Assembly (NCBI GenBank): GCA_937944855.1
Contig: CALFAY010000001.1
Location: 1-64,000 of the forward strand
DNA from: an uncultured Planctomycetota bacterium
GTDB taxonomy: Bacteria; Planctomycetota; Planctomycetia; Gemmatales; HRBIN36
Reading direction: 5' to 3'
Length of the DNA stretch: 64,000 bases
Below are positions 11,799 through 16,786 of the stretch, in pieces (the first letter of the stretch is position 1; every line of letters starts with the position of its first letter). The translations under genes were made by a program, and so were the position numbers. Under the pieces are notes generated by a model. That model was not told the DNA's origin. It searched no databases and was given only the letters and a program-made list of their open reading frames with translations.

Positions 11799-12527
11799 CT
11801 AACGGCGTCGGGACTCTTCGATGATCCGCTTCATCTCGGCGACCGCTTGCCGCATGCCGACGAAGACAGACCGCGAAACGATGCTGTGTCCGATGTTCAA
11901 TTCCGCCAGGCAGGGGATGGCAGCGATCTGGCGGACGTTGTGGTAGTTGAGGCCGTGGCCCATGTGGACAGCCAAGCCTTTTTCGTGAGCATAACGGGCC
12001 GATTCGCAGACCTCGGCGAAGCGCTCACGGACCTCGTCGAGGGTCTTGGCTTCCGAGTAGCGGGCGGTCTGAATCTCGACAGCCTCGGCGCCGAGGGCCT
12101 TGGACAGTTCGATCTGCTGCGGATCGGGGTCGATGAACACAGCGACACGGATGCCGTGCGTCTGAAGCTGGCGGATGGCGTCGGCAACGGTCCGTTCGTT
12201 GCGGGCTACGTCCAGACCACCTTCGGTGGTGATTTCCTGACGGCGTTCGGGAACCAGGGTCGCCTGATCGGGACGGATCTCACAAGCGATGCGGAGGATT
12301 TCCGGCACGGCGGCCAGTTCGAGATTGAGCGGCACCTTGACCGTTTCACGGAGCAGGCGCAGGTCACGGACCTGGATGTGCCGCTGGTCTTCCCGCAGAT
12401 GCACGGTGATGAGATCGGCTCCACCGAGTTCGGCTTCGACGGCGGCCCAGACCGGGTCCGGCTCCCGGCCGCGCCGGGCCTGCCGCAGCGTGGCGACGTG
12501 GTCGATGTTCACACCGAGACGCACCAT
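11799..12527 (-). CDS. pdxJ: Pyridoxine 5'-phosphate synthase
   Basis: Condenses 1-deoxyxylulose 5-phosphate with 3-amino-2-oxopropyl phosphate to form pyridoxine 5'-phosphate in the DXP-dependent vitamin B6 pathway. The 242-residue length is standard. Family motifs are [17 protein letters not shown] at the start, [37 protein letters not shown] and [17 protein letters not shown] lies about 10 bases before the ATG, inside the last codons of the upstream helicase-associated gene, whose stop is 6 bp away, so coupling is likely. Confidence 0.97.
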
Positions 12528-12533
12528 AGAAGT

Positions 12534-14726
12534 TCATCCTCCTGTGTCTGCCTCTGTGGTGATTCCGACTGAACGCAAAAGATCGAGCAAAGCGGGCAAA
12601 TCGGCTTGTTCCACAGCGAGCGATTTGGGGCCAAGCCGTTCCTGGATCAATCTACGGGATTCGGGCCATTGCATCAGGCCGTCGGCGACCTGGGGGTTGG
12701 GCGTCTGAAGCACGAGCAGGGGACAGACCCGCAGCGGGCTTTCGGCGTGTCCGTTGAGCAAGAGTTTGACCGCAGCAGGCGTTTCGCCTCCGGTCCGTCG
12801 TCGGAACCAGTCGTCAATCATCTGGGCCGTCAAGCCCTCTTCCCGGGCCTTTCGCAGCGAATCGGGCGTCAAACGGTACACCCGTCGGTTGTGCTCATCC
12901 CTGCGCCGCGTCTCCGAAATCAAGCTAGACGTGGCAGGGACCGGCTCAGCGAAGCGTTGCAGTTCGGTTTCGAGCAGCAGATCCGCCCGGGCCATGTCCA
13001 CGCTGAGTGTCACCCCGTCGTCGCTGACACTGACGCACTGATCCGGCGGCAGGCCGTAGTCCCGCGTCGCCATCAGGCGAAAGTGGCGGTAGTCCAAGTC
13101 ATCCTCCCGCTCGACGAGTGCCAGACGATCCGTGAGCACCACGGCGGGCAGGCCGCGGGCCAGGGCCGCCTGCAAATCGTCTGCCGAGGCAAACTCCAGC
13201 AGCGTCGCCGCGGCATAGACGGTGACTCGTTCCCGCTTGTCTGCCCAGGTCTTGAGGGCCTGTACGACGGCCGCAGGTAGTTCCCGTACTGCGTGCTGTT
13301 GAAGCACCCGCAGAATCTCGTCATGGGTCAGTCCGGTTTCCAGGCCGCGATACACGCTTTCGGGAGTGAGTTGCAGGGTACAGGCGGCACCCAGGCTCTT
13401 CCACTCGCAGAAACGGCTCAACTGCCCGATCAGCTCCGGCCTCAGACCTTGCCGATAGGCGATGATCTCCAAGTTCGGCTGGACCAGAAGTGTCTGGGGA
13501 TACTGGGGCAGCGACGGCAGCGGTCCCAGGCCGAGCACGCCCCGGCCCAAGGCAGTGAGGCGGACGAACCACATTTGCCCGGCGTCCTGGGCCGCTTCAA
13601 TCAATCGCATCGGAAAGGCGAAACCGAGCAGGAACGCCCGCAGCCAGTCGCTTAAAGAGGAGGGGATCGAGGACGCGGCTTCGTCGTCGCTTTCGGTTTG
13701 CTTGGGCTTCCAGCGGGGATGGCGACAGACTAGCCAAGCAGAGAGGTCGTCCAGGCTGCACCATTTTTCCGCTTCGATCTGGGCCAGGGCGGTCAGGAGG
13801 CCGATGCCAGCCGACATCGGCCAGAGAAGTTCCAGTGGAGCGGGATTGAGGTAGGAATCGTTGACCAGCGATTCGACCTCGTATCCGCACGACCAGAGTT
13901 TTTCCAGGACGGTTGCCAGATCGTGCAGGAGCACTTCGGGCAGGCGTGCCACCTGCAACACAGAATCGTCGGCGTCGTACTTAATCAGCCCGGTAGCCAT
14001 GCCCCAAACGAGATACCATTTCCAGCCCGAGGGAAAATCGGTCAGGTCGGCGGGACCGGGACCATTGAGCAGTGGGTCCTCTTCAAAACGCTGGTGATCT
14101 TTCTTGAACAAGCCGCCGTACATCTTGATCCGAGGCGGATCGAACCGCGTTTTCTGCCACAGCACAGCCAGACGGAGCGGCAGTTCCAGGCCATCGGCCT
14201 CGGGAAATACCTGGAGATTTCCCTCCGGTTCGGACTCTGCTACCCGACCCAGAGAAGGCGAAATGCCCACGGCCCGCTCGCCAACACGCGGCGGCAAGAG
14301 TACGAAGTCGGTGTCGGACCGCAGGGCCTTGGGCACCCAATTTTCGAAGCGTTCAATGCCTTGCTGGTCATTCTTGGTTTCGACGAACAGCAGACCGCCT
14401 TCGCACAGGGAAAGGATCAGGTCCAGGCTGTTATTGCTGCCGGCGATGCACGCCAGTTCGAGAACGTGGGGCAGAGGCCACCGCCAGCGTCGGCCGACGT
14501 GGAGCAAGGTCAGCAGAGCGAGCGCCTCCGGGGCCAGCTGCCGAATCCGACGGTCGATGAGGGGGACGTTTTCGAAAGCGGATGCGACGCGGTCCAGGCA
14601 TTGCTTCGGGGTCAGCTTAGATCGGTCGCGGAGCAGATTCTCGACCACCCGTTTTCGCAACGTCGGCGCGTAGCGGGCCAGGGCATCGGCGAGAACTGAG
14701 GAGAAATCGGAATCCGGCTTGGTCAT
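12534..14726 (-). CDS. Helicase-associated protein (XPB/Ssl2-type helicase-conjugated domain)
   Basis: A 730-residue protein, mostly alpha-helical, without Walker motifs. A long upstream extension of the frame (to 15002) is low-complexity Arg/Ser-rich and overlaps two other genes. I therefore start at the ATG at 14726 (MTKPDSDFSSVLADALARYA), which makes an ATGA overlap with the 84-residue gene. The C-terminal half (from about residue 420: LLVQPNLEIIAYRQGLRPEL, then SVYRGLETGLTHDEILRVLQ) matches the helicase-conjugated domain that in actinobacteria is encoded next to XPB. It probably works with the XPB helicase encoded 250 bp upstream in the same operon, in DNA repair or unwinding; this role is inferred from family and position. 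Confidence 0.8.
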   Translation of the reverse strand: MTKPDSDFSSVLADALARYAPTLRKRVVENLLRDRSKLTPKQCLDRVASAFENVPLIDRRIRQLAPEALALLTLLHVGRRWRWPLPHVLELACIAGSNNSLDLILSLCEGGLLFVETKNDQQGIERFENWVPKALRSDTDFVLLPPRVGERAVGISPSLGRVAESEPEGNLQVFPEADGLELPLRLAVLWQKTRFDPPRIKMYGGLFKKDHQRFEEDPLLNGPGPADLTDFPSGWKWYLVWGMATGLIKYDADDSVLQVARLPEVLLHDLATVLEKLWSCGYEVESLVNDSYLNPAPLELLWPMSAGIGLLTALAQIEAEKWCSLDDLSAWLVCRHPRWKPKQTESDDEAASSIPSSLSDWLRAFLLGFAFPMRLIEAAQDAGQMWFVRLTALGRGVLGLGPLPSLPQYPQTLLVQPNLEIIAYRQGLRPELIGQLSRFCEWKSLGAACTLQLTPESVYRGLETGLTHDEILRVLQQHAVRELPAAVVQALKTWADKRERVTVYAAATLLEFASADDLQAALARGLPAVVLTDRLALVEREDDLDYRHFRLMATRDYGLPPDQCVSVSDDGVTLSVDMARADLLLETELQRFAEPVPATSSLISETRRRDEHNRRVYRLTPDSLRKAREEGLTAQMIDDWFRRRTGGETPAAVKLLLNGHAESPLRVCPLLVLQTPNPQVADGLMQWPESRRLIQERLGPKSLAVEQADLPALLDLLRSVGITTEADTGG

Positions 14727-14977
14727 AGTGAATGATCGAACGTCTCGTTGTGCGACGTGCCGACAACGCGAGGTGCGTGACCCATAGCCTGCAACTCCTC
14801 GACGACGGCAGCGATCCTTCCTGGACGGATGAGGAGCATCCGGTCGGTCAGCCGACCAAGCACTTGATCCGCCAACCGACGCCGGGACAGAAGTTCCTGC
14901 GCCAGCACGGCGTCTTCGGCGACGATGAGGTTGACCCGGCGATGTACCTTGACGGATATCCGTGTGCCGCTGCCCAT
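14723..14977 (-). CDS. Small conserved-looking protein between XPB helicase and its partner
   Basis: 84 residues, starting with MGSGTRISVKVHRRVNLIVA. The first half is basic with alternating hydrophobics and may form a strand-helix fold; the C-terminal part includes RIAAVVEELQAMGHAPRVVG. No known family is recognised. It begins 3 bp after the XPB stop and its stop overlaps the next start in ATGA, so the spacing on both sides supports a real gene. It could be a small subunit or regulator of the helicase, which is inference only. Confidence 0.65.
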   Translation of the reverse strand: MGSGTRISVKVHRRVNLIVAEDAVLAQELLSRRRLADQVLGRLTDRMLLIRPGRIAAVVEELQAMGHAPRVVGTSHNETFDHSL

Positions 14978-14980
14978 AGG

Positions 14981-16786
14981 CTAATCCCCGCTTTCTCGAC
15001 AACCCTGGCGGAGCAGGTCGGCCGCATCCACGATGGCGTAGCTGTAGCCTTGCTCAGTGAGGAACAACTGACGGTGGTGGGCAAAGTCGAGTTCCCGGGT
15101 GTCCCGCGTCACCAGGGTATAGAAGTGCGCTGGTTCGCCCCCGCTTTTCGGTCGCAGAATCCGCCCGAGGCGCTGCGCCTCCTCCTGCCGGGATCCGAAG
15201 GTGCCGGACAATTGAATCAACACGTTGGCGTCCGGCAAGTCGATGGCGAAGTTTCCGACCTTGGACAGAATCAGGTGCCGGACCCGACCGGCCCGGAAGT
15301 CGGCGTAGAGTTTTTCCCGTTCGGCGTTGGTCGTGCTGCCGGTGATGAGCGGTAATTGGAAGCGTCGCTGCACCTCCCGCAACTGCCGCAGATATTGGCC
15401 GATGATAAGCACCCGGGCGGAGCGGTAGCGTTTCAGGAGATAGTCCACGACTTCGAGCTTGTCGGGATTCTCGCTGGCGATGCGATACTTGGCCCGCCAG
15501 TCGGCGACGGCATATTCCATGCGTTTGTTGGCCGGGAGCGACAGACGCACTTCGGTACACTGGGCCTCGGCGATCCAGCCTTGAGTTTCCAGTTCCCGCC
15601 AGGGAATGTCGTATTTCTTAGGACCGATGAGGCTGAACACATCAGCTTCCCGCTTGTCCTCCCGCACCAGCGTCGCCGTCAATCCCAATCGCCGACGCGC
15701 CTGAATCTGGGCTGTGATGCGGAACACCGGAGCCGGGAGCAGATGCACTTCGTCGTAAATAATCAGTCCCCAGTCCCGCTCATTGAACAGGCGAAAATGC
15801 GGAAACTCGTCCCGCTCTTCGCCCTGCTTGTCGTTGGGTTCGGTGGAAGCCTCGGCTTTGTCGGAACTGTGCGCCGAGGCTTCCTGACCCTCTCCTTCTC
15901 CCTTGGCTCGATTGACCGTGCGACGGTAGGTGAGAATCTGGTAAGTGGCCAGGGTCACGGGGGCGATGTCCTTGCTCTCGCCGGTGTACTCGGCGATTTG
16001 GTCCGCGGTCAGGGTGGTCTTGTCGAGCAGTTCCCGCCGCCACTGTTTGACGGCGGTGACGCTGGTGGTCAGGACCAGGGTGGAGCGTTGCAGCAGGGCC
16101 ATGACGGCCAGGCCGACGATCGTCTTGCCCGCCCCGCAAGGCAGCACGATGACGCCGCTGCCGCCCCGCACTCCGCCGCCGGCGTAGAAGATCTCGGCCG
16201 CTTCTCGCTGGTAATCCCGGACGACGAACTGCGGGCCGCTGACCATGTTCTCCCGCAAGGCCATCGGCAGCGGAGCACCTTCGGTGTACCCGGCCAAGTC
16301 TTCGGCGGGGTACTCGACGGCAATGAGGGCTTGTTTGAGGACGCCGCGGAATGCCGGATCGACACGGTAACTGTGGCTGTCGAGCCGCTGGCCGAGATAC
16401 TGGCGAATCTTTTTGTGCCGGGAAAGCTCTTCCAGCAGCGGCCGGTCGGAGCAGACAAGTTTTAGGTGGTCCCCATCGCGCTCGAGCCGGACCCGGCCAT
16501 AGCGACTGACCATTTCCCGGAGGTAAGGTCCCAGGCTGGGCGGCAGGGGGAATTTGCTGTAGCGGGCCAGGCCGTCGAGCATTTCGTCGGCGGACATGCC
16601 GGCGGCGGCAGCGTTCCACAGCGACAGCGGTGTGAGGCGGTAAGTATGGATGTGTTCCGGGCTTTTTTCCAATTCGGCAAAGGCGGCCAGCAGATTGCGA
16701 GCGGGGACGTAGCGGGGATTGTCCACTTCGACCAGGATGGACCGATCCCCCTGGACGATGAGCGGATTGGCGGGATCGTAGCTCAT
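14981..16786 (-). CDS. XPB/Rad25-type superfamily 2 DNA helicase
   Basis: A 601-residue helicase related to eukaryotic XPB. An N-terminal domain (residues 1-200) of helicase-conjugated type precedes the ATPase. Motif I is LPCGAGKTIVGLAVMALLQ near residue 220, motif II is IIYDEVHLLPAPVFR (DEVH) near 343, and LGLTATLVREDKREADV carries the RED motif typical of XPB near 375. The second RecA domain has LILSKVGNFAIDLPDANVLI and RQEEAQRLGRILRPK. Between motifs Ia and II is a low-complexity acidic insert (about residues 285-330). XPB proteins unwind DNA in repair and transcription. It heads a three-gene module with an 84-residue protein and a helicase-associated protein. Confidence 0.95.
   Translation of the reverse strand: MSYDPANPLIVQGDRSILVEVDNPRYVPARNLLAAFAELEKSPEHIHTYRLTPLSLWNAAAAGMSADEMLDGLARYSKFPLPPSLGPYLREMVSRYGRVRLERDGDHLKLVCSDRPLLEELSRHKKIRQYLGQRLDSHSYRVDPAFRGVLKQALIAVEYPAEDLAGYTEGAPLPMALRENMVSGPQFVVRDYQREAAEIFYAGGGVRGGSGVIVLPCGAGKTIVGLAVMALLQRSTLVLTTSVTAVKQWRRELLDKTTLTADQIAEYTGESKDIAPVTLATYQILTYRRTVNRAKGEGEGQEASAHSSDKAEASTEPNDKQGEERDEFPHFRLFNERDWGLIIYDEVHLLPAPVFRITAQIQARRRLGLTATLVREDKREADVFSLIGPKKYDIPWRELETQGWIAEAQCTEVRLSLPANKRMEYAVADWRAKYRIASENPDKLEVVDYLLKRYRSARVLIIGQYLRQLREVQRRFQLPLITGSTTNAEREKLYADFRAGRVRHLILSKVGNFAIDLPDANVLIQLSGTFGSRQEEAQRLGRILRPKSGGEPAHFYTLVTRDTRELDFAHHRQLFLTEQGYSYAIVDAADLLRQGCRESGD

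Follow-up and report, generated by a model that had tools for sequence, protein, structure and literature searches.

With which partners does a bacterial XPB helicase work? The question is raised by a 64,000-nucleotide stretch of DNA from an uncultured Planctomycetota bacterium (GenBank contig CALFAY010000001.1, positions 1 to 64,000; hereafter the window), in which genes for an XPB, a small protein of 84 aa and a large protein of 730 aa lie head to tail on the minus strand. The function of bacterial XPB is called poorly understood in a passage of PMC3353954 (2012), where the enzyme is taken to act without a complex like transcription factor IIH (TFIIH). We read the three genes as a bacterial version of the XPB-anchoring module of TFIIH, composed of XPB, a p52-like scaffold and a p8-like small subunit, and assign this reading a probability of roughly 0.8. 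The operon would then encode a prokaryotic XPB-p52-p8 translocase without the rest of TFIIH.

Organization of the XPB operon

The XPB gene (16786..14981, 601 aa) is unambiguous; its product scored 843.7 bits against the NCBIfam model for the bacterial DNA repair helicase XPB (NF045503, cut-off 610), in agreement with the first-pass annotation, which had called it a bacterial XPB-type helicase. The sequence GAGKT at residues 218-222, presumably the Walker A motif, and those that we take to be the DEVH (345-348), RED (375-377), and QRLGR (538-542) motifs were invariant in alignments with relatives; the XPB alignment (A3) held a chosen subset of 19 of the 30 available. The N-terminal domain (NTD), or clutch partner, covers approximately residues 9-105 (16472..16762; all features given here are on the minus strand) with a PF13625 match at 9-135, and it is followed by a DRD-like segment (approximately residues 108-165; 16292..16465) that resembles the small protein. 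In TFIIH, the NTD of XPB is the domain that binds p52, as described in a section of PMC6422496. Between the helicase motifs lies a charged insertion some 30 residues long (15821..15913, approximately residues 292-322), which is missing in most relatives, one being present in 3 of the 19 aligned.

A spacing of 3 bp separates XPB from the small gene (14977..14723, ATG start), while in the ATGA at 14726..14723 the stop of the small gene overlaps the start of the large gene (14726..12534, 730 aa counted from its ATG). Layout, spacing and overlap are as first annotated. The arrangement recurs in relatives: among 39 loci, the stretch contained XPB in 30 and the large gene in 31, and the order XPB-small-large was found in 25, the small gene being within 190 bp of the large gene or overlapping it. 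Two loci whose p52-like gene is some 2 kb distant (L043, L051) were left out of this adjacency count, and a third (L031) stops at a contig end and is uninformative on XPB linkage. In three genomes (G016, G034, G040), XPB is located elsewhere and the small gene still lies within 25 bp of the large gene; that these two are kept together without XPB indicates a p52-like/p8-like pair.

Conservation of the small gene

A short frame in a GC-rich genome could be an artefact, and the region does contain many overlapping chance open reading frames (ORFs). The small gene was, however, detected by protein search in 40 of 41 related genomes, its own included, and in the alignment of the 40 sequences column identity averages 54% and 8 residues are invariant. 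Compared with the same-genus copy, its ratio of nonsynonymous to synonymous substitution rates (dN/dS, NG86 values) was 0.145, with a median of 0.08 over 74 pairs of closer relatives; the gene is under purifying selection. An artefact is ruled out by this conservation, the gene order and the dN/dS value, as well as by retention of the gene where it is unlinked from XPB, and we regard its probability as negligible.

The sole genome of the 41 without the small gene (G037) also yielded neither XPB nor the large gene, a triple absence that may be a gap in an assembly of 1430 contigs. When 13 genomes were searched again, the large gene was recovered in 12 and XPB in 11, with no XPB seen in an 87% complete genome (G005). 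Used as a single sequence, the small protein matched nothing in Pfam or NCBIfam at E ≤ 1, and a scan of IMG/VR for its relatives found none. Conservation of the frame, which the first-pass annotation had proposed as a check, holds within the taxonomic order of the window (the 40 of 41 genomes above); outside this order, the gene is often absent.

The protein is basic, as first noted, with an isoelectric point of 11.0 (median 10.0 over 39 relatives) and a conserved basic N-terminal stretch, RxPVKLHRR. Both features would suit a DNA-binding accessory that loads XPB on DNA and is unrelated to p8. We consider this explanation unlikely, given the fold and profile matches to p8/Tfb5 and the relationship of the small protein to domains inside both neighbours, which are described below; a basic charge is, moreover, compatible with a p8-like fold.

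The large protein resembles p52/Tfb2

Described in the first-pass annotation as a helicase-associated protein, the product of the large gene has the 730 residues originally counted and is, by the predicted overall fold including the clutch, like the TFIIH subunit p52/Tfb2. A Foldseek search of 350,542 PDB chains with its AlphaFold model (predicted local distance difference test, pLDDT, 87.4) returned 21 hits at E ≤ 0.001, and all 21 were p52/Tfb2 (best 7.3e-9), with XPB chains ranking next. Whole-chain template modelling scores of the p52/Tfb2 hits were low (0.16-0.24 on the 730-aa model), as expected if the domain arrangement differs. VIA aligned p52 chains with residues 71-550 at Z of about 14, compared with 8.1 for the best unrelated row.

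The likeness can be followed domain by domain. VIA matches to p52 begin at residues 70-81, and the N-terminal and middle part extends over approximately residues 71-402 (13521..14516); taken separately, the N-terminal half of p52 (6tru_B) superimposed on residues 79-401 with Z 7.5, which is not above unrelated rows. The clutch (HubA) domain follows at residues 408-500 (13227..13505), with a PF13625 match at 413-523, and VIA superimposed it on the NTD of human XPB (residues 71-163) at 1.7 Å over 91 residues (Z 15.9). According to a portion of PMC6422496, the clutch of p52 is homologous to the NTD of XPB in TFIIH, and the two domains pair up in a pseudo-symmetric dimer. Past the clutch, a stretch like the p52 C-terminal domain (CTD) occupies approximately residues 501-556 (13059..13226), in which the TFB2 alignment contains LPPTVVDQIRLW...R..Y and where VIA matches to p52 end (548-553). 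The remainder is an extra C-terminal region (residues 570-724; 12555..13019) that resembles the XPB NTD and DRD (hhalign E 3.6e-6, alignment A2 against A3, and a second PF13625 hit) and ends, judging from the secondary structure of the model, in a predicted p8-like fold (669-719).

Sequence profiles point in the same direction. A 29-member profile of the p52-like family (alignment A2, with 28 of 31 available relatives, the full-length ones) gave nine hits against the PDB at E ≤ 10, the top five of which were TFB2/p52 (E 0.0012-0.010), and the alignment with TFB2 covers the clutch and then the beginning of the CTD, in the same order as in p52.

The archaeal partner of XPB is Bax1, according to a part of PMC13024598. 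The operon in the window is similar in that XPB has a genomic partner; there the partner is a nuclease, whereas here the neighbours are p52-like and p8-like. Could the large protein nevertheless be a hidden nuclease in a helicase-nuclease pair of the XPB-Bax1 kind? This appears highly improbable, since the protein matches p52 over 71-550, its end resembles XPB NTD-DRD, and Pfam and NCBIfam scans of it gave no nuclease family. A Bax1-type partner encoded elsewhere was rejected as well: Bax1 (PF05626) had no match in the 94% complete genome of the window, while 4 of 14 control genomes were positive, which bears out the early remark, made with archaeal Bax1 in mind, that no nuclease was obvious. 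The p44/Ssl1 family (PF04056) was likewise not found in this genome, and control genomes also gave no match over the cut-off. With Bax1 absent and Ssl1/p44 not found, the latter under a weak control, the module is at most the XPB arm of TFIIH.

The small protein resembles p8/Tfb5

The p8 identity of the 84-aa protein was guessed before testing. By its model, the small protein looks like p8/Tfb5/TTDA, with a predicted β-α-β-β-α fold as in p8, and the original description of it as unknown was therefore not quite right. The companion suggestion of an accessory subunit is supported by its conservation, its co-occurrence with XPB and the large gene, and a predicted fold for which p8/Tfb5 is the best match. 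In Foldseek, the nine best rows and 12 of the best 13 were all p8/Tfb5 chains, some of them assigned as p8 by entry and length; they rank above the DRD and the p52 CTD, and none attains E 0.001. The best VIA matches were the human XPB DRD, Tfb5/p8 and, slightly lower, the p52 CTD.

Searching 177,635 PDB sequences with a 40-member profile of the small family placed TFB5 in the top two positions (E 0.041 and 0.046), with gapless alignments of 53 residues. Further TFB5 entries followed at E 0.057-0.067, interspersed with MarR-type regulators at 0.056-0.058. Tested as a single named protein, the TFB5 segment scored above every one of 20,000 shuffles, a result obtained with both of the profiles tried, and the reversed segment was unremarkable. 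In TFIIH, Arg-400 of p52 contacts Asp-13 of p8, as reported in a section of PMC9557730. The counterparts, whose register was taken from the TFB2 and TFB5 profile alignments, are Arg-500, invariant in the p52-like family (29/29), and an acidic residue in 38 of 40 small proteins, respectively.

Several results weigh against assigning the two proteins to p52 and p8. On the side of the large protein, the Pfam Tfb2 model reached E 5.9e-4 (19.3 bits, cut-off 34.5) and matched just 2 of the 29 family members, with TIGR00625 (tfb2) similarly below its cut-off (E 1e-4, 21.5 bits, cut-off 320.7). Pfam Tfb5 (PF06331) matched none of the 40 small proteins, and the reverse Pfam Tfb5 search of 21 genomes did not recover the small gene. 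Since these curated cut-offs were failed, we use the terms p52-like and p8-like and do not file the large protein as Tfb2. The E-values of the TFB5 profile matches (0.04-0.08) are marginal on their own and were not strengthened by a wider alignment (A5; E 0.054), whose profile ranked repeat proteins (20-residue matches), uS15 and a designed TIM barrel above TFB5. The model of the small protein is of middling confidence (pLDDT 75.5), aIF1 comes close to it in VIA (Z 5.2, among the best matches), and DUF2336 weakly matches 9 of the 40 small proteins (best 2.9e-4). Glu-397 of p52 has no conserved counterpart, being Lys in 25 of 29 p52-like proteins. Finally, most XPB-p52-like loci elsewhere in the phylum are without the small gene.

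A probable common domain in three proteins

When profiles were compared, the small family aligned with the end of the p52-like family (hhalign E 7.1e-6, probability 84; A1 against A2) and with the XPB segment past the NTD (residues 110-162; E 1.8e-4, probability 48; A1 against A3). In genomes of other phyla, the profiles found the C-termini of p52-like proteins, with E-values as low as 7.4e-11, and gave weaker matches to XPB DRDs, located at the same position as the DRD-like segment in the window. These profile matches make it probable that a single domain exists in three copies, as the small protein, as the end of the p52-like protein and as the DRD of XPB.

This relationship opens another explanation, in which the small protein arose by local duplication from one of two neighbouring domains, the p52-like C-terminal one or the XPB DRD, and is an analogue of p8 with the same or a similar dimerising job and an independent origin. 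We consider this explanation a serious contender, at somewhat under an even chance. In its favour, the matches to the two neighbours are better than the E of 0.041 for TFB5, which came from a far larger search; the small profile extends to XPBs and p52-like C-termini of other phyla; VIA puts the human XPB DRD level with Tfb5; and the stand-alone gene is patchily distributed. Foldseek, on the other hand, places p8/Tfb5 above both the DRD and the p52 CTD. A passage of PMC7708078 describes a common fold of p8 and the p52 CTD in TFIIH, and a local duplicate therefore predicts nearly identical data.

Proposed mechanism and comparison with TFIIH

Should the operon be the XPB-anchoring module, it should work like XPB-p52-p8, judging by fold and gene pairing. 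The clutch of the p52-like protein (408-500) would pair with the homologous NTD of XPB, and the small protein with a p8-like domain of the p52-like protein (501-556 or 669-719), as p8 does with the p52 CTD; we infer this p8-like/p52-like CTD heterodimer from fold and gene pairing. The pair may cradle the second RecA lobe (RecA2) of XPB, where it would both stimulate and limit the DNA-dependent ATPase. Eukaryotic p52/p8 activate the XPB ATPase and limit its speed, as stated in a part of PMC7708078, reportedly the former in the absence of DNA and the latter in its presence. In such a complex, XPB would act on double-strand DNA as a controlled translocase, and its task would most likely be DNA repair, a role that is a guess from the family.

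Compared with the eukaryotic XPB-p52-p8 module (Ssl2-Tfb2-Tfb5), the window has an XPB, a p52-like protein over residues 71-550 with its clutch, and a separate p8-like protein, and in both systems the clutch resembles the XPB NTD. The differences are that the genes in the window are bacterial and form a single operon, that the p52-like protein has the extra XPB NTD/DRD-like end, and that its proteins fall short of the Pfam Tfb2 and Tfb5 sequence cut-offs. XPB from Mycobacterium tuberculosis also has an NTD and a helicase core; it was studied as a single protein and is said, in a passage of PMC3353954, to be independent of a TFIIH-like complex, while XPB in the window has p52-like and p8-like gene neighbours.

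Distribution of the module

In a draw of 246 genomes across the phylum, the XPB model was above its cut-off in 115 and the small profile matched 9, one of them doubtful (G148, where the match covers 39 positions inside a 1267-aa frame and is probably no small gene). Of 40 XPB neighbourhoods from other families of the phylum, 36 had a p52-like ORF and 5 the small gene. One genome (G186) carries two XPB loci (L072, L073); a small gene separates XPB from the p52-like gene in one of them and is missing from the other.

Beyond the phylum, a scan of GTDB genomes, in which the best 80 of 591 XPB loci were kept, found a p52-like ORF near XPB in 40 of these 80, including loci from Chloroflexota, Bacillota, Actinobacteria, and Thorarchaeota, among others. 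Some of the loci lacking one are short contigs, and in loci from Fibrobacter, Spirochaetes, and Brevibacillus no p52-like ORF was seen within 5 kb of XPB. Both p52-like counts (36 of 40 and 40 of 80) depend on an iterated p52 profile that had drifted and also picked up small proteins and the NTDs of XPBs; any ORF recognised as XPB was for this reason excluded before counting. Outside Planctomycetota, a stand-alone small gene occurred in a Troglogloeales genome (L128), and a Hydrogenedentes genome (G317) has another, close to a p52-like frame. By these counts, XPB is more commonly found with a p52-like gene alone, and a separate p8-like gene is the less frequent addition.

That a bacterial operon seems to encode XPB beside relatives of the two proteins holding and regulating it in TFIIH, which serves transcription and repair in eukaryotes, suggests a pre-eukaryotic age for part of this factor. 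A broader proposal, on which we are evenly divided, is that the XPB-p52(-p8) module predates eukaryotes and TFIIH was built around it; p8, the p52 CTD and the XPB DRD would be copies of one ancestral small domain, and in living bacteria and Thorarchaeota the module would still serve as a regulated DNA translocase. If the p52-like and p8-like partners hold true, bacterial XPB becomes testable as a minimal TFIIH translocase, and three proteins of a small operon could reveal how p52/p8 activate and limit XPB and how the module arose. They could also show the simplest role of p8, which is the subunit missing in trichothiodystrophy group A, and the PF13625 "helicase-associated" proteins of many bacteria would gain a concrete, testable role. 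No report of a bacterial p52 or p8 appeared among the titles and abstracts listed by searches of the open-access PMC literature; subscription papers and preprints may hold an earlier notice.

Variant loci and neighbouring gene

Variants of the locus were seen in three other groups. Five Chloroflexota loci (L108, L114, L121, L139, L142) have two tandem p52-like genes after XPB. In three from Thorarchaeota (L148, L151, L157), the p52-like gene lies 1.7 to 3.6 kb from XPB, and the interval contains a small conserved ORF and an opposite-strand ORF that we take to be RFC-like. An actinobacterial p52-like protein encoded upstream of XPB (L182:1788-4271) ends in a WYL domain (PF13280, E 2.4e-6). In the window itself, a gene at 11799..12527, presumably PdxJ-like, is located on the same strand as the operon and begins 6 bp past the stop of the p52-like gene.

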